Below, piece after piece: positions 1 to 60,625 of a stretch of DNA of 64,000 nt. The number at the start of each line of letters is the position of its first letter. The first letter of the stretch is position 1. The position numbers and the translations under genes were made by a program. The notes beneath the pieces are model-generated. The model worked only from the letters and a program-made list of their open reading frames with translations. It had not been told where the DNA came from and made no database searches. Source of the stretch: Acidobacteriota bacterium (lineage in GTDB: Bacteria > Acidobacteriota > Thermoanaerobaculia > Gp7-AA8); assembly GCA_021325515.1 (NCBI GenBank), contig JAJPHC010000014.1:1-64000 (forward strand). The letters are read 5' to 3'.

Positions 1-211
1 AAATTCAGAATGCAGAATCGCAGAATTCAGAATGAAGAATGGGGGCGGCGCTCAGGCGTCGGATCCGGCCTTCAATTTTTCATTCTGAATTCTGAATTCT
101 GAATTCTGAATTTCGCTTTTGACGTTCTCGTCGAGAAGCCACGAGCGAGCGAGGGGGCGGGGAAAAGCGAAATTCAGAATGCAGAATCACAGAATTCAGA
201 ATGAAGAATGG
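1..211. repeat. Heptamer (ATTCTGA) inverted tandem array upstream of thiolase
   Basis: Positions 1-40 and 172-211 are near-identical 40-bp direct repeats (one difference seen) built from AGAATTC-like words. Between them, 82-113 carries at least four head-to-tail copies of ATTCTGA in the opposite sense, so the flanks can pair with the centre. Each flank is followed by a related GATCCGGCCTT word (near 61 and 230). I see no credible gene in 1-334. The element probably lies in the leader or promoter region of the thiolase gene. It resembles the other short-unit inverted arrays in this window in design, but not in sequence. Confidence 0.8.
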
Positions 212-334
212 CTGCCGCGCCCGCTGCGCGATCCGGCCTTTCTCTGAGCTCCCCGCCAGTCACCCGCCCGAATTTCGTACAAACGGGGCCGGAGTGGTAG
301 AACCTCCCCTGATTTGACACTCCAAGGAGCACTC

Positions 335-13091: not shown

Positions 13092-13430
13092 GGGGTACTG
13101 GGGCGCTGGGGTGCTGGGTGGGTTTGCGGGCTCGCGGGCGCGCGGGCTCGCGGTGCTGATTGGTTACGCGGACACGCGGGCACCGATTGGTTACGCGGAT
13201 ACGCGGGCTCGCGGGCTCGCGGTGCCTGGGCCCAGGTCACGCTGCTTTGCCGAAGCTCTCGAGAACTGCACCGAGTACCGCGAGCCCGCGAGCCCGCGAG
13301 CCCGCGTATCCCACTGCGAGCCCGCGAGCCCGCGAGCCCGCGTATCCCACTGCGAGCCCGCGAGCCCGCGAGCCCGCGTATCCCACCGCGAGCCCGCGAG
13401 CCCGCGAGCCCGCGTGACCAATCGACACCG
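13092..13430. repeat. GC-rich inverted array with 36-bp higher-order units
   Basis: Fills most of the 354-bp gap between the TPR gene and the sigma-54 activator. The right arm has four adjacent 36-bp units (13280-13315, 13316-13351, 13352-13387, 13388-13423). Each is three copies of GCGAGCCC plus a 12-base end word such as GCGTATCCCACT. The left arm (about 13132-13230) carries the complementary words GGGCTCGC and GGTTACGCGG. The loop is near 13231-13279. Positions 13092-13115 add a separate GGGGCGCTGGGGTGCTGG stretch. The arms could form a very long stem. No coding function is evident. Confidence 0.85.
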
Positions 13431-32201: not shown

Positions 32202-32774
32202 ATGAAACTCATCGTCGGCCTCGGCAATCCGGGAGAGGGATATGCGCAGACCCGCCACAACGCGGGGTGGATGGTTCTCGACGCGTTTGCCAGGAAGTTC
32301 CGCATCGGCATCGACAGGCATGAGAAGGAGTCGATGACGGGCGAGGGACGCGTGGCGGGCGGCACGGTGAAGGTCGCCAAGCCGCTGACGTACATGAATC
32401 TCTCCGGCAACGCGGTGAAGCTCCTCGTCAACGCTTATCTCGATACGACCGAAGACCTGATGGTCGTCTTCGATGAGATCGATCTGCCGCTGGGGAAGCT
32501 GCGCATCAAGCCGAGCGGCTCGGCGGGGACGCACAACGGCATGCGGTCCATCGTCGAGTCATTGGGAACCGAGCGCTTCCCGCGGCTGCGCGTCGGCGTA
32601 CGCGGCGAGACGCATCAGGAGTATCGCCTGCGCGATTACGTGCTCGACGAGTTCGCGCCGGAAGAGAAGCCGCTGCTCGAGCAGACGATCGATCGCGCGG
32701 TCGACGCGCTGGTGCTGTTCGCGCGTGGCGACCTCAAGCGCGCAATGAACGAGTTCAATCGCGATCCAACGTAA
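32202..32774 (+). CDS. pth: Peptidyl-tRNA hydrolase
   Basis: A 190-residue enzyme that recycles peptidyl-tRNA released from stalled ribosomes. Family motifs are complete: LIVGLGNPGEGYAQTRHNAG with the catalytic His, KPLTYMNLSGNAV, VVFDEIDLPLG, and GSAGTHNGMRSI (usually GGHNG). The Thr in GTHNG is a common variant. ATG 32202 is chosen. The stop TAA is followed after two bases by the first unit of a 68-bp repeat array, so the gene's 3' end lies at the array boundary. Confidence 0.95.
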   Translation: MKLIVGLGNPGEGYAQTRHNAGWMVLDAFARKFRIGIDRHEKESMTGEGRVAGGTVKVAKPLTYMNLSGNAVKLLVNAYLDTTEDLMVVFDEIDLPLGKLRIKPSGSAGTHNGMRSIVESLGTERFPRLRVGVRGETHQEYRLRDYVLDEFAPEEKPLLEQTIDRAVDALVLFARGDLKRAMNEFNRDPT

Positions 32775-32776
32775 GA

Positions 32777-33077
32777 GGAGCGCGGAGGTCCCCGTCCGCG
32801 AGCTGTGGGCCGAAATGTGCGGACGAGGCGTCCGCACTCCACGTGGAGCGCGGACGTCCTCGTCCGCGAGCTGTGGGTCGAGATGTGCGGACGAGACGTC
32901 CGCACTCCAAGTGGAGCGCGGAGGTCCCCGTCCGCGAGCTGTGGGCCGAGATGTGCGGACGAGGCGTCCGCACCCCACGTGGAGCGCGGACGCCCTCGTC
33001 CGCGAGCTGTGGGCCGAAATGTGCGGACGAGGCGTCCGCACTCCAAGTGGGGCGCGGACGTCCTCGTCCGCGAGCTG
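32777..33077. repeat. Array of 68-bp palindromic units downstream of pth
   Basis: Four adjacent units of exactly 68 bp (32777-32844, 32845-32912, 32913-32980, 32981-33048) and a partial fifth to about 33077. Each unit has two palindromes: one around GCGGACGTCCTCGTCCGCG and one around TGCGGACGAGGCGTCCGCA, separated by AGCTGTGGGCCGAAA-like spacer. Units differ mainly by paired changes within the stems. This fills the space between pth and the ChlI-like gene (32775-33175). The remaining 100 bp before that gene are not recognised as coding. The repeat recurs, in the other orientation and with the same period, at 47972-48083. Confidence 0.92.
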
Positions 33078-36426: not shown

Positions 36427-37085
36427 ATGGAAATCAGAAAACGGGCGCGCCTCCCGCACTGGGATATCGAACAAGGAACTTACTTCGTGACGTTCTGTCT
36501 GTTTGATGCCTTTCCTGCTGAAGAACGACGACACATCGAAGAACAACGCAAAGCACACATTGCGCTGATCGAGAAGGAGCGCGGACGTATGACGCCGGCC
36601 GAAGCCGCCGCCTTGAATCGGACCATTCGAACGGAGACAGAGAGGGTGCTGATCGTGGCGCCGGATCGTGTCTGATGAGGGACCCGAGAATTGCGGAGAT
36701 CGTCGCAAACGCGCTCGCTCACTTCGATGAGAAGCGGTATCTGCTTTACGCATGGGTGGTGATGCCGAATCACGCCCACCTCGTTCTCTCCCTCGCCGCG
36801 GGTGAGCGTATCGATCGCGTCATGCAGTCGATCAAGGGTTTCTCTTCACACACCGTCAATCGCCTGCTTGGACGGGCAGGATCGCTTTGGTTATCCGACT
36901 ACTTCGATCGTTCGATTCGGGGGGCGGAGCAGCTTGCTCGATGTATACGGTACGTAGAACGGAATCCCCTGAAGGCGGGAATGTGCGACTGGCCGTGGGT
37001 GCGGTCTCATTGGTCGCGCGTCGAGTCGCCGGGCGGGACGCCCGGTGACTGCGGACGAGACGTCCGCGCTCCTCGGTCGTCATAG
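36427..37085 (+). pseudogene. REP-associated tyrosine transposase (RAYT), frameshifted
   Basis: A Y1/HUH-type transposase of the REP-associated family, in two frames. The first part (36427-36675) begins MEIRKRARLPHWDIEQGTYF, a typical RAYT start. The second part (from about 36645 in the other frame) reads DRGAGSC, then LMRDPRIAEIVANALAHF, WVVMPNHAHLV (HUH motif NHAH), and LWLSDYFDRSIR with the candidate catalytic Tyr. Adding one G near 36650 would restore a single frame, so a one-base deletion is likely. The end runs into the right REP element. RAYTs are thought to mobilise REP sequences; this copy is probably inactive. Confidence 0.88.
37024..37073 (-). repeat. Right REP element of the RAYT locus
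   Basis: Reverse complement reads AGGAGCGCGGACGTCTCGTC followed by CGCAGTCACCGGG. It matches the left element in 45 of 50 positions and carries the same two-palindrome design. The outer core TGCGGACGAGACGTCCGC also occurs in the 68-bp array at 32.8 kb, linking the transposase locus to that repeat family. Confidence 0.85.
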
Positions 37086-39076: not shown

Positions 39077-40345
39077 ATGCTTGCACGTGAATACCTACGC
39101 GAACACGCCGACGACTATCGCGAGGCGCTGAAGCGCCGGGGCGCGAGCGTCGACATCGAGCGCTTCATCGAGATCGACGCCGACCGCCGCCGCACGATCG
39201 CGCGCGTCGAACAGCTCAAGAATCAGCGCAATGTCGCGTCGCAGGAAATCGCAGCGCTGAAGAAGAACAAAGAGGATGCGACCGCGCAGATCGAGGCGAT
39301 GAAGCGCGTCGGCGACGAGATCAAGGAGCTCGACGGCCGCCTGGCGCAGATCGAAGAAGAGCTGAGCAGTCTCGAACTGTATTTCCCCAACGTCCCACAC
39401 GAGAGCGTCCCCGTCGGCCCCGACGAGTCGGCGAATCGCGTGGAGCGCACGTGGGGCGAGAAGCCGAAGTTCAACTTCACTCCCAAGCCCCACTGGGACC
39501 TCGGCGCGGACCTCGGCATCATCGACTTCGATCGTGCGGCGAAGATCACGGGAACGCGCTTCGCGATCCTCTCCGGCGCCGGCGCGCAGCTCTCGCGCGC
39601 GCTGATGGCGTTCATGCTCGACACGCACACCGAGAAGGGCTACCGCGAGATCCTCACGCCCTTCATGGTGAACGCCGACTCGATGCGCGGCACAGGCCAG
39701 CTTCCGAAGTTCGAAGCCGATCTCTTCAAGCTCGCCGGCGAGAAGCAGTTCTATCTGATTCCGACGGCCGAAGTGCCGGTCACGAATCTCTATCGCGACG
39801 AGATCCTCGACGGCGCCACGCTCACGCAGTCGTTCTGCTCCTATTCGCCATGTTTCCGCAGCGAAGCGGGCGCCGCGGGGAAGGACACGCGCGGTCTGAT
39901 CCGCCAGCACCAGTTCGAGAAGGTCGAGCTCGTGAAGTTCACGACGCCGGAGAAATCGTGGGAAGAGCACGAACGCCTCACCAATGATGCGGAAGCGATT
40001 CTGCAGGCGCTGAATCTTCACTATCGCGTCGTCACCCTCTCCACCGGCGACATGGGTTTCACCTCGGCGAAGACCTACGACATCGAAGTGTGGCTGCCGG
40101 GACAGGATGCCTATCGCGAGATCTCCTCCTGCTCGAACTTCCTCGACTTCCAGGCGCGGCGCGCAAACATCCGCTACCGCGATGCGAACAAGAAAGTGCA
40201 GTTCGTGCACACGCTGAATGGCTCGGGACTGCCGCTGGGCAGGTCGCTGATCGCGGTGCTGGAGAACTACCAGCGCGAGGATGGATCGATCGAGATTCCG
40301 ACGGCGCTGCGGCAGTACATGAAGGGGAAGAGCGAGATTAGATAG
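39077..40345 (+). CDS. serS: Seryl-tRNA synthetase
   Basis: Class II synthetase of 422 residues. The N-terminal coiled-coil arm that grips tRNA-Ser spans about 25-105 ([16 protein letters not shown]). The catalytic core has [10 protein letters not shown], motif 2 with [20 protein letters not shown], and motif 3 [16 protein letters not shown]. The length is standard. Start ATG 39077. It is followed by a long nonamer inverted repeat that separates it from the convergent DUF4388-FHA gene. Confidence 0.97.
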
Positions 40346-40500
40346 GACGAATGGGACGGATGGGACGGATAGGACGGATGGGACCTATAGGACCTATAGG
40401 ACCTATAGGACCTATGGGCGGAGCGGGGCTTTTCAGGGCTTCTGCGCAGCGGTTCTGCCTATAGGTCCCATAGGTCCTATCCGTCCCATTCGTCCCATCC
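40343..40500. repeat. Nonamer inverted array between serS and FHA gene
   Basis: The left arm (about 40343-40417) has tandem nine-base words GGGACGGAT and then GGACCTATA. The right arm (40458-40500) has the complements, TATAGGTCCC and CCGTCCCAT. The two can fold around a ~40-nt loop. It begins at the serS stop and ends two bases before the stop of the convergent gene, so it can act as a two-way terminator. The same word family recurs at 60271-60625. Confidence 0.85.
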
Positions 40501-40501
40501 T

Positions 40502-41680
40502 TCAACTGAACAGGATCTGATACTGCAGGTCCGTCGCTCCCATCCTCACGCGATCGTTCTGCTTGAGCACCGCGTGGAAGATGCGGGTGTTGTTCACCCA
40601 GGTGCCGTTGCGGCTCTTGAGGTCTTCGATCACGTATCCCTCGGGGCCGCGATAGATCCGTGCGTGGAAGCCGGAGACGCCGAGGTCGGCGATGCGGATC
40701 GTGCTCTCGCGGTGGCGGCCGACGAGATACTCCGCTTCTGACAGCGGGATCACGGTTCCTTCGCCTTCTCCGTTGACGATCGTCAGTTGCGCGATGGTCG
40801 GCTTCACCACGTCGGCGTAGGAGAGATGCGCTTCGTCGGAGATCAGCAGGTTGGTGTCGTCGCGTTTCTCCGGGATCGACTCCGCCGCAACCGTCGCGTT
40901 GGTCTCGTTCGCCGCGGAGACCGGCCCGGTCTGGCGCACGGTCGCGTCTTCGTGTGCGTCATGGACTTCCTGCGGAATCGGCTCGATCAGCTTGCTCGCC
41001 AGCAGGCCGTAGACGATGCGGTAGACGTTGAACGGATCTTCTTCGGCGTCGTGACAGAGGTCTTCGAGCGTGCGCGCGGCGTTGATGAGAAAGAGAATCC
41101 GCCACTCGTCCGCCTTGAGCGTGATCTTCTCTTCGCTCGGATTGGCGACGACGCGATACACCGCCTTCTTGTCCGGCAGCAGTTGCAGGCACTGCTCCCA
41201 CTCTTCGATGCGGCGCGCGCCTTCCATGATCAGGTTCGACAGGTCGATGGAGATCGTCACTGCATAGTTCGGCAGGTCCATCTGTTCGGCGAAGGAGAAC
41301 GTCCCGCCGTTCCAGACGAAGGAGTCGTAGATGATCTCCGACACCTGAACCTTGAGGAAGTCCTGCAACTGGGTGCTGGTCAGGAAGCCCTGCTGGACGG
41401 CGATCTGTCCGAAGCGGCCTCCTTCGCTGCGCATCAACTGGTCGATGCGCGCGCAGTCGGCGGCGCCGATTTTTTTCTTTCGCAGCAGAATGGCGCCGAG
41501 GCGGAACTGCTCCTGGTTGGAGCCGGCGTAAACGAGCTCGCCCTGGTCGAAGAAGACCCACGTCTCGCGCGATTCGTTGCTGAGCGTGAGCGTACCGCTC
41601 TTGCGTGCCGTGTGCAGGAACGTCAGCACCTCCGGCAGTTTGAACGAGGCGAGACTCCCACTCAGGACGGCATCAGCCAT
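40502..41680 (-). CDS. DUF4388 (PATAN-like) and FHA domain protein
   Basis: A 392-residue cytoplasmic protein. The N-terminal ~240 residues hold a DUF4388/PATAN-type domain (LSGSLASFKLPEVLTFLHTA, SGTLTLSNESRETWVFFDQG), common in proteins of polarity, motility and response regulation. A charged linker follows. The C-terminal ~100 residues are an FHA domain (AEYLVGRHRESTIRI, VSGFHARIYR, DLKSRNGTWVN), which binds phosphothreonine. It could read the output of the TPR kinase at 17-19 kb, but they are not adjacent. It is divergent from the MFS gene across 35 bp. Confidence 0.9.
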   Translation of the reverse strand: MADAVLSGSLASFKLPEVLTFLHTARKSGTLTLSNESRETWVFFDQGELVYAGSNQEQFRLGAILLRKKKIGAADCARIDQLMRSEGGRFGQIAVQQGFLTSTQLQDFLKVQVSEIIYDSFVWNGGTFSFAEQMDLPNYAVTISIDLSNLIMEGARRIEEWEQCLQLLPDKKAVYRVVANPSEEKITLKADEWRILFLINAARTLEDLCHDAEEDPFNVYRIVYGLLASKLIEPIPQEVHDAHEDATVRQTGPVSAANETNATVAAESIPEKRDDTNLLISDEAHLSYADVVKPTIAQLTIVNGEGEGTVIPLSEAEYLVGRHRESTIRIADLGVSGFHARIYRGPEGYVIEDLKSRNGTWVNNTRIFHAVLKQNDRVRMGATDLQYQILFS

Positions 41681-44502: not shown

Positions 44503-44625
44503 GTGCTGAGTGCCGAGTGCTGAGTGCTGAGTGCTGAGTGAAGAATGATGAATCAAGGGCGCAGGGGCTTTCTGACTCAGCACTCAGCACTCAGCACTCA
44601 GCACTCGTCACTCGTCACTCGTCAC
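44503..44625. repeat. Heptamer GCTGAGT inverted array in a divergent promoter region
   Basis: GAGTGCTGAGTGCTGAGTGC then TGAGT (44515-44539) pairs perfectly over 25 bp with ACTCAGCACTCAGCACTCAG then CACTC (44575-44599), around a 35-nt loop. Extra GTCACTC words continue to about 44625. The array sits in the 211-bp gap between the divergent dienelactone hydrolase gene and the small zinc-ribbon gene, inside their leaders or promoters. Confidence 0.85.
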
Positions 44626-44669
44626 TCTGTGACATTTCGGGCGTGAGCTTCGTATAGTGATGAGGAGAG

Positions 44670-56004: not shown

Positions 56005-56050
56005 TGGAGTGCGGACGCCCAATGTGCGGACGAGGCGTCCGCACTCCGCC
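56005..56050. repeat. Short REP-like palindrome upstream of GT-C gene
   Basis: GTGGAGTGCGGACGCCCA, then ATGTGCGGACGAGGCGTCCG and CACTCCGCC. A shortened unit of the 68-bp family lacking most of its spacer. It lies 25 bp upstream of the next gene. Confidence 0.7.
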
Positions 56051-56074
56051 TATATACTCCCGCCAGACTCCCGG

Positions 56075-57856
56075 ATGGATCTCTCCGCACCTCCACCTCC
56101 ACTCACGCGCAACGAACGAATCGCCTTCTGGTCGATGGCGGTCGTTTGCGCAGCGTCGCGGTTTCTCGCGATGGCGAAGTCGCTGTGGGACTGGGATGAG
56201 GCGCTCTTCTGTCTCGGTATGCGCTCGTACGACGTCACGAGCCACCATCCGCATCCGCCCGGCTTTCCGGTCTACATCGCGCTCGGACACCTCGCGAGGT
56301 TCTTCATCCACTCGGACTTTCGCGCGCTCCAGGCTGTGAATCTCGCCGCAGGGATGCTGCTCTTTCCGGCGATGTTCATGCTGTGCCGCGAGTTGCGATT
56401 CCGATTCGATGTTGCGCTGCTCGCATCGGCGCTGCTGCTCTTCTTCTCCAATATCTGGTTCTTCGGCGGCGGCGCGTTCAGCGACATTCCTTCGCTCACA
56501 CTCGTCGTCTTCGCCGCGGCGCTCTTTTTCCGCGGATGCCGCGACGCCGAGGCGTATCTGATGGGCGCGTTCGTGCTGGCGCTCGCGATCGGCATCCGCC
56601 CGCAGAATCTCGCCGTCGGTCTGTTTCCGGGCATCGTTGCCACCTGGCATCGCGCTCGCGCGAACTGGCGTGACGTCGTATTCGCCGCGCTCCTCGGCAT
56701 CACCATCACCGCGATCGCATTCGGCGAAGCGGCGTGGGTGACGGGAAGCACCGCGCGCTATCTCGACGCCATTCGCGTGCACAGCGATTACATCGCGCGC
56801 ATCGATTCCTTCCGCGCGCCGAACCGCCCGCCGCTGTGGCGGCTCTTCGATCGCTTCTTCATCAAGCAATACGGATCCCCTCTGCTGAGCGTGCTCACGT
56901 CCGTTCTTGTGCTCGTGTCGATCATCGGATCGGTTCGGAATCGCGATCGGAGAATCGCCTTTCTGGCGATGACGTTCGGGCCGGTCGCGGTAATGGCGTG
57001 GCTGATGCTCGACCGGTTCAGCGTCACGCGCTTCTCGCTCGCCTACATGCCGCTGTTCGCTCTGCTCGCGATCGACGGCGTGAGGTACCTCGTGCGCGAT
57101 CGGCCGAAGCTCGTGGTGGCAGGCAGCGCGGCTCTCATCGCTGCATTCGCCGTCTGGACCCTGCCCGCTCTCACAGCAGTGCGCCGCGAGGCCTCTCCTC
57201 CCGTGCTCGCAGTCGAAGCGGCGCGCGGACGAATCGAGCCGTCGAAGCAGCATCTCTTCGTCGCGTTCAACATGGTGCCCTTCGTCGAGTACCTCGATCC
57301 TGCGATTCCTTTCACGCGCGTGCTCGATGATCGTGCAATGCCGCTCTCCGCAGGGGATCGGCAACCCTGGCTGCTGGCCGAGGATGAATCGACGCCTCGC
57401 AGCGGATTCGTTTTCCGTCGCGAGCGCGGGCGCCTGTGGAACATCGCGCGCCGCCATTACTTCGAATGCGGTCTCGAGCCGATGACGAGGCTGCCTCAGT
57501 TCGGCGATGGGTGGTACGCGCCGGAGCGGAATGGCGCCGACGAATGGCGGTGGATGGGAAAGCACTCGACGACGACGCTGCCTTCCGCCGAAGGGATGAT
57601 GAAGCTGCGGCTGAATCTGAATCTGCCGGGGGAATTGATCTCCAGACATCCGGTGATCACCGTGCGGCTGAACGGAGCCGTCCTCGACCGCGTTTCCACG
57701 GTCACGCACTTCGAGCGCGATTACAAAGTCAGCCCCGCGGCGGGAAACCGCGCGAATGTGCTCGAACTGGAGACGACGGAAGTTCTGCAGCAGCCGGACG
57801 GCGATCCGCGCGCGCTCGGAATCCAGGTGCGCTATCTGTCATGGGGGCCGGATTGA
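56075..57856 (+). CDS. Multi-spanning membrane protein, GT-C/ArnT-like glycosyltransferase candidate
   Basis: A 593-residue integral membrane protein with about ten helices in the first 370 residues, then a soluble, beta-rich C-terminal domain (~440-593). The first loop (SLWDWDEALFCLGMRSYD) has an acidic DWDE patch as in GT-C transferases that use polyprenyl-phosphate sugars. HHPHPPGFPVYIALGHL resembles related mannosyltransferase-like families. No specific acceptor is suggested. ATG 56075 is chosen because upstream codons lie in a REP element. The stop is just before the AT-rich hairpin that carries the next gene's start. Confidence 0.75.
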   Translation: MDLSAPPPPLTRNERIAFWSMAVVCAASRFLAMAKSLWDWDEALFCLGMRSYDVTSHHPHPPGFPVYIALGHLARFFIHSDFRALQAVNLAAGMLLFPAMFMLCRELRFRFDVALLASALLLFFSNIWFFGGGAFSDIPSLTLVVFAAALFFRGCRDAEAYLMGAFVLALAIGIRPQNLAVGLFPGIVATWHRARANWRDVVFAALLGITITAIAFGEAAWVTGSTARYLDAIRVHSDYIARIDSFRAPNRPPLWRLFDRFFIKQYGSPLLSVLTSVLVLVSIIGSVRNRDRRIAFLAMTFGPVAVMAWLMLDRFSVTRFSLAYMPLFALLAIDGVRYLVRDRPKLVVAGSAALIAAFAVWTLPALTAVRREASPPVLAVEAARGRIEPSKQHLFVAFNMVPFVEYLDPAIPFTRVLDDRAMPLSAGDRQPWLLAEDESTPRSGFVFRRERGRLWNIARRHYFECGLEPMTRLPQFGDGWYAPERNGADEWRWMGKHSTTTLPSAEGMMKLRLNLNLPGELISRHPVITVRLNGAVLDRVSTVTHFERDYKVSPAAGNRANVLELETTEVLQQPDGDPRALGIQVRYLSWGPD

Positions 57857-57860
57857 GGAA

Positions 57861-57945
57861 AAATTGAAAATTGAAAATTGAAAATTGAAAATGGGGCGAG
57901 ATGGTCTCTTCCAATTTTCAATTTTCAATTTTCAATTTTCAATTT
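57861..57945 (+). promoter_or_regulatory. AT-rich 32-bp perfect hairpin with start codon in its loop
   Basis: Tandem GAAAATT heptamers (57861-57892) and their complement (57914-57945) form a perfect 32-bp stem, with a 21-nt loop 57893-57913. The loop reads GGGGCGAGATGGTCTCTTCC then A, holding a purine-rich GGGGCGAG and the metalloprotease ATG (57901). In RNA, the stem is all A-U and G-U-free, weakly melting per pair but long. The right arm is also translated. This layout could gate translation, for example with temperature, or simply present the start site. Confidence 0.75.
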
Positions 57946-60276
57946 CGCCTCTTGCCGGCACTTCTCTTCGTTGCCTGCGCAACGACGCATCCCGCGGGCG
58001 TGGCGCCGGCGGTGAAGGGCGAGGCGATCAACGGGTACCTGAACCTCACCTGGGACGCCGAGAACGCGCGTCTCTATCTCGAGCCGCGGCTCAACGAGCC
58101 GATGATCTATCAGACCTCGCTTCCCGCGGGCGCCGGCTCCAATCCTCTCGGTCTCGATCGCGGTGAGCTGGGCGGGACGCACCTCGTTCACTTCGAACGC
58201 GCCGGTTCGCGTGTGCTGCTCGTGGAAGAGAACACGAAGTTCCGCGCGCTGACGAATGACGAGAACGAGCGGCGTGCGGTGCGCGACTCGTTCGCGCAGT
58301 CGGTCCTTGCCGGCTTCGACGTGAAGTCGGAAGAGAACGGCCGTCTGATCGTCGACGCGACCGACTTCCTCCTGAGTGACGTGCACGGCGTGGCCCGCCG
58401 TCTGCGCGACAACCAGCAGGGCTCGTATTCGCTCGACAAGTCGCGCAGCGCGTTTTTCATGGAGCGGACGAAGGCGTTTCCGCGCAACACGGAGATCGAA
58501 GCGACTCTGACGTTCGCGGCGGGCGATCAGCCTGGTGCGCTCATCAGTGGTGTGACGCCCTCGCCGGAGAGCGTGACCGTGCGCGAGCATCATTCGTTCG
58601 TCGCGCTGCCGCCGCCGGGATACACGCCGCGCAGGCTCGATCCGCGCGTCGGCTCGATCGCGCTCGAGTTCTACGACTACGCCACGCCGTTCACCGCACC
58701 GCTCGAGCGCCGCTGGATCCTTCGGCATCGCCTGCAGAAGAAAGATCCGGGCGCGGCGGTCTCCGATGCCGTGGAGCCGATCGTCTACTACCTCGACTCC
58801 GGCGTGCCGGAGCCGATCCGCAGCGCGCTGATCGAAGGAGCGTCGTGGTGGAACGATGCGTTCGAAGCGGCAGGCTTTCGCAATGCATGGCAGGTGAGAC
58901 TGCTGCCGCCGGGCGCCGACCCGATGGATGTCCGCTACAACATGATCAACTGGGTGCATCGTTCGACGCGCGGCTGGTCGTACGGCGAATCGGTGATCGA
59001 TCCGCGCACTGGTGAGATCATCAAGGGCAACGTCCGTCTGGGATCGCTGCGCATCCGCCAGGATCTGCTCATCGCGCGCGGTCTCAGCTTCGATGTCGAG
59101 AAAGGCGGCGACGCCTTCGCACTGGCGCGCATTCGACAGCTCGCCGCGCACGAAGTCGGACACACGCTCGGTTTCGATCACAACATGGCGGCGTCGAGCG
59201 ATGGGCGCGCCTCGGTGATGGACTATCCCGCGCCGTACGTGACGATCACGCCCGAGGGGAAGCTCGATCTTTCCGCCGCCTACGCGAAAGGCCTCGGCAG
59301 CTACGACCTCGCCGCGGTTCGCTACGCCTACGCGCAGTTCGCGCCGGGCGTGGACGAAGAGCGCGAGCTCAATCGCATCGCACGCGAGGCTCCGCTGTTC
59401 GTGAAGGATGCCGATGCGCGTCCGGTGAGCGCGGCACATCCGCGCGCGTCGGTGTGGGACAACGGCGCGGATCCCGTCGCGATGCTCGCGCATGAGATCG
59501 AGGTGAGGCGCATCGCGCTCGAACATTTCGGCATCGACAACCTTCGCACCGGCGAGCCGCTGTCATCGCTCGAGGAAGTGCTGCTGCCGCTCTATCTGCA
59601 CCATCGTTATCAGCTCGAAGCCGCCGCGAAATCGATCGGCGGTCTGAACTACAGCTATGCGGTGAAGGAGGCGGATGGCATCGTGCCGCAGCCGGTGCGG
59701 GAGATCGTTCCTGCGGCAAAGCAGCGCGAGGCTTTGGCGCTGCTCCTCTCGACGCTCGATCCGAAGTTCCTGGCTCTGCCGCAGCGCATCATCGATCTCA
59801 TTCCGCCGCGTGCCTTCGGCTACGAAGGCGGCATCGCGGAGCTCTTCGAGAAAAAGACTGCGCCGGCCTTCGATCCCGTCGCCGCCGCCGAGACCTCGGC
59901 GGACATCACGATCGCGGCGCTGATGGAGCCTCATCGCTGCGCGCGTCTCTTCGAGTTCCATGCCGAGAATGCCGACAATCCGTCAATGGCCGAGGTCGTC
60001 GATCGATTGATCGATTCGGCGATGCGCAGTTCGATCGTGCGATCGCTCATCGCACAGCGGATGATGGATCTTGCCGCGAATGAGAAAGCGAGTGCGGCCG
60101 TGCGCGCCGAAGCCGCCGAGGGGCTGCGCCGCTTCAGCGCGCGGCTGGCGGAAGGAAAAGCGGATCTCGCGAGCTGTCACCTGGTTCGCGACGAGATCGA
60201 ACGATTTCTGGCGCGCCCCGCGGAGATGAGAAAGCCGGCCAGGCTGCCCGAGATCCCGCCCGGCCCGCCAATCTGA
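57901..60276 (+). CDS. Exported zinc metalloprotease (metzincin-type, DUF5117/DUF4953-like)
   Basis: A 791-residue lipoprotein-like protease. The zinc motif HEVGHTLGFDH (His417, Glu418, His421, His427) is the metzincin signature, with SVMDYP as the following Met-turn-like segment. Flanking regions match large DUF5117/DUF4953 proteins of Bacteroidota and Acidobacteriota. A hydrophobic stretch RLLPALLFVAC with lipobox FVAC suggests lipid anchoring. The first ~15 residues (SNFQFSIFNFQF) come from the heptamer repeat, so the repeat provides part of the signal region. The stop TGA lies in the first bases of the next repeat array. Substrate unknown. Confidence 0.88.
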   Translation: MVSSNFQFSIFNFQFRLLPALLFVACATTHPAGVAPAVKGEAINGYLNLTWDAENARLYLEPRLNEPMIYQTSLPAGAGSNPLGLDRGELGGTHLVHFERAGSRVLLVEENTKFRALTNDENERRAVRDSFAQSVLAGFDVKSEENGRLIVDATDFLLSDVHGVARRLRDNQQGSYSLDKSRSAFFMERTKAFPRNTEIEATLTFAAGDQPGALISGVTPSPESVTVREHHSFVALPPPGYTPRRLDPRVGSIALEFYDYATPFTAPLERRWILRHRLQKKDPGAAVSDAVEPIVYYLDSGVPEPIRSALIEGASWWNDAFEAAGFRNAWQVRLLPPGADPMDVRYNMINWVHRSTRGWSYGESVIDPRTGEIIKGNVRLGSLRIRQDLLIARGLSFDVEKGGDAFALARIRQLAAHEVGHTLGFDHNMAASSDGRASVMDYPAPYVTITPEGKLDLSAAYAKGLGSYDLAAVRYAYAQFAPGVDEERELNRIAREAPLFVKDADARPVSAAHPRASVWDNGADPVAMLAHEIEVRRIALEHFGIDNLRTGEPLSSLEEVLLPLYLHHRYQLEAAAKSIGGLNYSYAVKEADGIVPQPVREIVPAAKQREALALLLSTLDPKFLALPQRIIDLIPPRAFGYEGGIAELFEKKTAPAFDPVAAAETSADITIAALMEPHRCARLFEFHAENADNPSMAEVVDRLIDSAMRSSIVRSLIAQRMMDLAANEKASAAVRAEAAEGLRRFSARLAEGKADLASCHLVRDEIERFLARPAEMRKPARLPEIPPGPPI

Positions 60277-60625
60277 ATGGGACTATGGGACCTATGGGAC
60301 CTATGGGACCTATGGGGGGAGCCGCCCATTGGTCCAAAGATCTCTGCGAAATCTGAATGGGACCTATGGGACCTATGGGGGGAGCCGCCCATTGGTCCCA
60401 TAGATCTCTGCGAGATCTGAATGGGACGATGGGACCTATGGGACCTATGGGACCTATGGGGGGAGCCCACCGATTGGTCCCATAGATCTCGGCGAAATCT
60501 GAATGGGACGATGGGGCCCCACCGATAGGGCTCATAGATTCTGCGAAATCTGAATGGAACGATGGGACCTATGGGGGGAGCCACCCATAGGTCCCATAGG
60601 TCCCATAGGTCCCATCGTCCCATCA
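60271..60625. repeat. GGGACCTAT nonamer array in five diverged units
   Basis: Units begin with (A)ATCTGAATGG near 60271, 60351, 60413, 60498 and 60548. Each has one to three GGGACCTAT words, then GGGGGGAGCC and a complementary segment ending TCTGCGAAATCTGAATGG. The last unit ends in TAGGTCCCATAGGTCCCATA, pairing with its own left words. It occupies most of the 504 bp between the metalloprotease and the glutamate dehydrogenase genes. The final 155 bp (60626-60780) hold no gene; TATGAT at 60743 could be a -10 element. Confidence 0.85.

Follow-up and report, generated by a model that had tools for sequence, protein, structure and literature searches.

A heptamer-armed palindrome around the start codon of an exported Acidobacteriota protease gene: a probable satellite of IVP (PF05635) elements, with one arm likely read as protein

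The palindrome that surrounds the start codon of an exported protease gene in a contig of a soil Acidobacteriota bacterium (the window: the whole stretch of 64,000 nucleotides that was analysed) is quite probably an IVP-less satellite copy inserted at a gene junction, the right arm of which is now read as protein. By analogy with REPINs, which are satellites of RAYTs, it would most likely be a satellite of the element in which AAAATTG arms enclose an IVP gene. The copy shares its architecture with a dispersed family, is absent from the same junction in syntenic relatives and leaves the protease frame intact, and the family is found in association with IVP genes. The features of the locus are as follows.

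56009..57856, + strand: upstream gene, 615 aa, no Pfam match, stop TGA at 57854-57856; the same neighbour in genomes G002, G003 and G014
57847..57959, no strand: imperfect continuation of the pairing outside the arms, GCCGGATTGAGG / CCTCTTGCCGGC
57859..57892, + strand: left arm, AA + (AAATTGA)n, with a promoter-like TTGAAA-17-GAAAAT at 57864-57892
57893..57913, + strand: loop GGGGCGAGATGGTCTCTTCCA, with a weak SD-like GGGG/GAG and the ATG at 57901
57914..57945, + strand: right arm, (AATTTTC)n, complement of 57861-57892, encodes NFQFSIFNFQF
57901..60276, + strand: exported lipoprotein-type Met-zincin, DUF5117 + DUF4953, 791 aa, HEVGHTLGFDHN motif

The claim of the sequence-only reading that the two arms are perfect complements holds exactly: 57861-57892 and 57914-57945 are reverse complements at 32 of 32 positions, both made of GAAAATT/AATTTTC heptamers on either side of a 21-nt loop. 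Imperfect pairing continues outward (57847-57901 with 57905-57959, 85%), a flank complementarity past the AAAATTG arms that is visible in the window copy but not significant overall (p = 0.15). With one mismatch allowed, the heptamer dimer GAAAATTGAAAATTG matches the window seven times, as compared with none in 100 dinucleotide shuffles, and the hairpin RNA is predicted to fold at -52 kcal/mol (z = -8.8 against shuffles). Read directly, the 7-nt unit gives the left arm a TGA in every frame within 21 nt, and leaves the right arm with no stop in any of its three frames. The best matches of an Rfam search fell far under the gathering scores and were mostly miRNA models lying on the long stem. A comparison with phages gave zero matches.

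The same heptamer dimer occurs 78 times (40 + 38) in the 5.38-Mb genome (G000), a reversed control pattern occurring not at all, and nearly all of the ~26 places read consist of a forward array, a loop and an inverted array between outer ends CGAAATT..AATTTCG. Within this AAAATTG family the arms are near-identical; the loops are unrelated to one another (mean identity 0.215 versus 0.200 when shuffled, a small excess) and host-like, with a GC content of 66%. The family is itself part of a broader class. A survey of 1.6 of the 5.38 Mb returned 124 long palindromes, where a Markov surrogate gave just one, periodic or not, and 90 of the 124 have periodic arms, of period 7 (n = 39), 9 (n = 38) or 8 (n = 13), with units that include GAGTGNN, GAANNNN, GCGGGCTC and ATRGGACNN. 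Several of these lie in the window itself.

2..215, no strand: two arrays of an ATTCAGA/ATTCTGA unit, same palindrome class, same CGAAATT..AATTTCG ends
13126..13424, no strand: 8-mer GCGGGCTC palindrome, same class as the hairpin
40341..40503, no strand: palindrome of the 9-mer ATRGGACNN, same class, flanked by convergent genes
44503..44627, no strand: 7-mer GAGTGCT palindrome, same class
60277..60623, no strand: cluster of 9-mer ATGGGACCT palindromes directly past the protease stop

When placed against gene calls from a simple codon-model script, in which individual starts may be wrong, nearly all palindromes prove intergenic (2 of 88 placed lie inside genes), the 8- and 9-mers sitting shortly past stop codons. 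No target-site duplication was seen, and no further gene in the 1.6 Mb convincingly needs a start inside a palindrome, at a listing threshold that misses the window copy too. Matches of loop 12-mers elsewhere are confounded by repeat remnants. Nine contigs of this genome (L309-L317, first bases) break at a multi-copy GAACGCA/GAATTGA palindrome composite, and the true copy number is therefore probably above that assembled. Across genomes the units differ sharply in their distribution: among 149 genomes of the class, more than two AAAATTG matches occur only in G000, G011 and G013; ATGGGACCT is nearly confined to G000; GAGTGCT is present in 10 of 18 genomes; and TTTTGGA is found in only one of the 18 (G001, 481 matches), with an arm-loop-arm arrangement in the copies read.

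Two 9-mer palindromes (G000:C51:576212-576293 and C55:69313-69406) are apparently translated in frame, in a helicase and a membrane protein, and DGT tails appear to derive from 9-mer palindromes at C61:78825 and C61:83741. A separate, non-periodic repeat, GTTAAGTTGGTTTTCGGGGGTCACACCTGGAAAATCAACTT..., has many inverted copies (G000:C40:142118, C51:153839, C55:39823 and others), and a further REP-like family reads GTAGGACAGGCGCC..GCCTGTC. At 32773-33077 of the window a 68-bp unit is repeated 4.5 times in tandem and contains hairpins of inverted GCGGAC..GTCCGC.

The palindrome family appears to be tied to the gene for IVP (or S23p; PF05635/TIGR02436), a four-helix-bundle protein of 23S rRNA intervening sequences with no known catalytic domain or activity. 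On contig C54 of this genome (region 69255-69545) an AAAATTG pair with a 360-nt "loop" encloses such a gene, which scores 79 bits against a TIGR02436 cut-off of 24, and IVP genes enclosed by AAAATTG arms occupy this same locus in three genera (L273, on C54, with L359 and L364). These copies (G000:C54, G011:C491, G013:C43) lie upstream of one shared protein gene, and the AAAATTG-armed IVPs of the three genomes are monophyletic (0.993). An AAAATTG-armed IVP is present in 3 of 3 AAAATTG-rich genomes versus 0 of 15 others, which would arise by chance once in 816 if relatedness is ignored.

The association extends well beyond one unit. Among the 51 IVP loci with enough flank that were first fetched from 18 related genomes, inverted arms above the 95% level of mispaired flanks border 50; the mean inverted-arm score is 29, as opposed to 10 for mispaired flanks, and the arms are nearly all periodic, with a best period of 7 in 42 loci and 8 in 9. 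Further IVP matches, mostly weaker or partial, mostly agree (failures at G016:C8, G007:C44, G006:C206 and G008:C56), and a weak match in G000:C28 has 9-mer arms. Distance between IVPs correlates with distance between their arm units (Mantel r = 0.53, p = 2e-4, 41 loci, the G000:C51 unit having been corrected by hand). Each of the 12 plasmid IVP genes examined, from cyanobacteria, Bernardetia, Treponema and Monoglobus, is likewise bordered by inverted arms. These score above the 95% level of the control in 11 cases and at that level in one (Treponema), with a best period of 7 throughout, weakly so in Nostoc UHCC0870. For TTTTGGA, the most abundant unit elsewhere, no IVP with matching arms was found. 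The palindrome loops do not have the look of internal deletions of an IVP element, and the loop of the window hairpin holds no ORF, so that this copy encloses no PF05635 gene. Separately, plasmid IVP genes were seen beside or between defence genes (cas2/cas1, drmD/pglX, hsdS/hsdR; L400, L404, L407, L408, L410), several of them separating the two members of a pair such as cas2/cas1 or hsdS/hsdR.

The mechanism that we favour would involve a family of short dispersed palindromes with arms of 4-5 tandem, family-specific units (GAAAATT here) and a variable loop, the full element carrying the PF05635/TIGR02436 gene in that loop and the satellite form lacking it. One copy would have landed where the 615-aa gene and the gene of the exported Met-zincin closely adjoin, with an IVP acting in trans to move or build the arms, as co-occurrence and co-evolution suggest. 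The right arm, never encoding a stop, would be tolerated in a cleavable signal peptide, and the hairpin transcript may be cut by RNase III, a step suggested by the rRNA intervening sequences.

At the locus itself, the left arm begins just 2 nt past the stop of the upstream gene. The DUF5117 + DUF4953 Met-zincin has homologues in many Acidobacteriota and Bacteroidota, and in the syntenic genomes G002, G003 and G014 the 615-aa gene and the protease adjoin without the array, the protease starting in overlap with the upstream stop or up to ~21 nt after it; in G002 the ORF starts ATGAGAAATTTATGG, overlapping that stop. Here, the N-terminus of ORF 57901-60276 reads MVSSNFQFSIFNFQFRLLPALLFVAC... The earlier proposal that the start codon lies in the loop and the right arm in the n-region of the signal peptide is likely to be right: the arm is open, and no in-frame start downstream is better than ATG 57901, which ranks first under both reconstructions given below; ahead of the lipobox, TTG 57952 is the sole alternative candidate. 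The protease most likely begins at ATG 57901, with the right arm translated into a cleavable signal peptide.

Two ancestral junctions can be reconstructed. In one, the whole 87 bp (57859-57945) would have been inserted two codons into an old ORF; its removal joins GATTGAGG to CGCCTC and gives TTG AGG CGC CTC TTG CCG.., that is MRRLLPALLFVAC, a product equal in length to the MRNLWMLVIFVAC of G002. In the other, two arms would have been placed around a native SD-ATG; removing the arms only leaves an SD-like GAGG..GGCGAG followed by ATG GTC TCT TCC CGC CTC.., or MVSSRLLPALLFVAC, such that the right arm would be an in-frame insertion of 33 nt past codon 4 and an arm-less allele would keep GGGGCGAGATGGTCTCTTCC. 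We lean modestly toward placement of the arms around host sequence, because the loops resemble host DNA and because the pcnB locus described below fits it. Insertion is the inferred direction of change, and with the nearest relatives at ~65% protein identity its exact boundaries cannot be fixed.

A related observation comes from the junction of pcnB with a gene for a secreted protein of ~244 aa (L270, G000:C52:50500-55500). Here, pcnB ends within an AAAATTG palindrome (..NETRIEN*), which also supplies MHTSRRPGSLAVLLFSIFNFQFAICASAQ, read from a GTG in its loop; without the arms the secreted protein would begin with an ordinary-looking signal peptide, MHTSRRPGSLAVLLAICASAQ. All 18 genomes of the family have relatives of the secreted protein, and at this one junction (L270, L279-L295) about five different units occur across genera, several of them apparently read into the signal peptide: GAATTGA arms in G011 (..IAITAFSILNSQFSILLAQ), TTTTGGA arms in frame from an upstream ATG in G001, GTGCTGC-type arms in G016, degraded AAAATTG arms in G012 and G013 and untranslated 8-mer arms in G008 and G009, with several other genomes having no arms. 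In intact copies the paired arms match each other, while the unit varies by genus. In G000 and G011 the secreted protein has no start codon between arm and cleavage site, and translation of the arm is therefore needed if the protein is exported like its relatives. An in-frame reading of the arm is likelier at the pcnB junction than at the window hairpin. The backbone of the pcnB-junction tree is too weak to separate an old insertion with replacement of the unit from repeated insertion.

Placement relative to genes bears on a different explanation, in which the palindromes are transcript-end elements that behave as REP sequences or terminators past stops, shielding or ending the upstream mRNA. 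The 8- and 9-mers fit this description, lying a median of 10 and 4 nt, respectively, past gene 3' ends, and 9-mers between tandem genes are closer to the upstream stop in 22 of 23 cases. The 7-mers, to which the window copy belongs, show no such bias (13 of 22); moreover, no intrinsic terminator (a GC-rich stem plus a T run) was called within the window palindrome, which has no T tract after a GC stem, and the downstream gene would be silenced. As an account of the window copy, a transcript-end role is thus unlikely.

The left arm also raises the prospect of a portable promoter, its AT-rich sequence giving -35 and -10 boxes from which transcription would begin in the loop, producing a leaderless or nearly leaderless mRNA that lacks the hairpin. 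The TTGAAA-17-GAAAAT at 57864-57892 has 9 of 12 sigma70 matches (a consensus that may not be that of the host lineage), two such sites occur in the region where shuffles predict 0.2, and the -10 box ends 8 nt ahead of the ATG. As a source of the protease transcript this candidate promoter is a live rival. On the other hand, it is a consensus match and a by-product of the repeat, it is missing from the other unit families of the class, and as an explanation for the palindrome it is doubtful.

Growth in situ from a chance short palindrome, driven by slippage during replication and by templating on the hairpin rather than by a mobile element, would account for the shared irregularities of the two arms of one 9-mer element (22.6 versus 19.2 shuffled) and for the variation of the unit between genera at one orthologous junction. 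Such mirrored irregularities are clear in the 9-mers and not significant for the GAGTG 7-mers (p = 0.15). Slippage is nonetheless improbable, given that one unit recurs at tens of unrelated sites per genome, that arms hold a fairly uniform 4-5 units and that the class is linked to IVP genes.

The sequence-only reading had proposed a thermosensor or translation gate, that is, a selected RNA stem that occludes SD and AUG until it is opened by warming or by the arriving upstream ribosome. An SD-like GGGG and the AUG do lie within the loop of the -52 kcal/mol hairpin, as it had stated, and an upstream stop 2 nt from the left arm makes translational coupling conceivable; the loop is not open, however, the GGGG and AUG falling in or beside a predicted mini-hairpin, GAGAUGGUCUC. 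Nor does the predicted stem melt in the physiological range: it stays paired throughout 10 to 80 °C, with at least 83% of the right arm still paired at 80 °C. The hairpin, furthermore, has the form common to a whole dispersed family and recurs at ~25 other places that mostly have no need of a start codon inside, and three syntenic relatives carry the gene pair without it. A thermosensor or purpose-built gate is accordingly very improbable.

REPINs are inverted pairs of conserved arms around a variable loop, many such satellites accompanying a low-copy gene flanked by the same arms. That the hairpin belongs to a RAYT/REPIN system proper, in which a Y1 transposase (PF01797) mobilises REP doublets, is very improbable. 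The paired inverted arms and the variable loop would fit, and the genome has seven PF01797 matches, among them a RAYT-like one at 36723-36965 of the window that the palindromes do not flank. Against it, no PF01797 locus within the surveyed stretches is closely flanked by palindrome arms, the only near one lies ~1 kb from the IVP element at C54, and the arms are (GAAAATT)n with CGAAATT..AATTTCG ends rather than GTAG/CGTC hairpins. The gene here is IVP, not a Y1 transposase, and its arms are tandem arrays, whereas REPs are defined by a GTAG/CGTC tag and a short hairpin of their own (PMC3733652).

Among known systems, the closest likeness to the favoured IVP satellite is with the 23S rRNA intervening sequences of Coxiella and Leptospira, in which a long inverted-repeat stem has a PF05635-type ORF in its loop. 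Those sequences sit in 23S rRNA helix 25/45; the elements described here stand at protein-gene junctions, have regular 7-, 8- or 9-nt arrays as arms and, the window's included, mostly lack an ORF. Membership among the rRNA intervening sequences was considered and set aside, with the window copy at a protein-gene junction and the copies at G000:C54, G011:C491 and G013:C43 before a protein gene; the hairpin is related to IVP elements and is not filed as an rRNA intervening sequence. The C. burnetii sequence itself combines an S23p ORF with a 28-bp inverted-repeat stem and tandem GACAGAT heptamers beside the ORF, and RNase III is known to cut stems of this kind (PMC4990558).

Cyanobacterial STRRs are likewise intergenic, hairpin-capable heptamer arrays of unknown function (PMC2670836); they differ in that no tie to four-helix-bundle genes was found in the searchable literature, and the IVP genes of Nostoc and other cyanobacterial plasmids bear STRR-like heptamer arms here. 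Rickettsia palindromic elements, of ~150 bp, are inserted in frame and translated (PMC10969869), a likeness of behaviour only, since translation at gene starts is the exception among the present palindromes. The TAACTGA repeats of Beggiatoaceae are also intergenic heptamer arrays near start codons (PMC4679880), but these are direct and almost never inverted. In mainly non-subscription literature we found no report of IVP genes joined to heptamer palindromes at protein-gene junctions.

The biological role of intervening sequences and of S23p/IVP proteins is still open (PMC4990558), and the co-occurrence and co-evolution of IVPs with palindromes join this puzzle to that of the STRR heptamers. 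It is conceivable, at somewhat less than an even chance, that a widespread mobile-element system takes its specificity from IVPs, each IVP lineage recognising, building or spreading its own heptamer-arm palindromes. Its satellites would then include the window hairpin, the STRRs of cyanobacteria and many heptamer arrays that lack an explanation. Their arms would be added on either side of host DNA, the later loop, by a route involving no known transposase, and arms with open frames would let the satellites be translated into signal peptides and tails at the edges of genes. The link between IVP and unit makes binding of the cognate unit, and movement, directly testable. The findings also point to a way in which non-coding palindromes probably turn into protein, as signal peptides in two genes and as the stops or tails of upstream genes.
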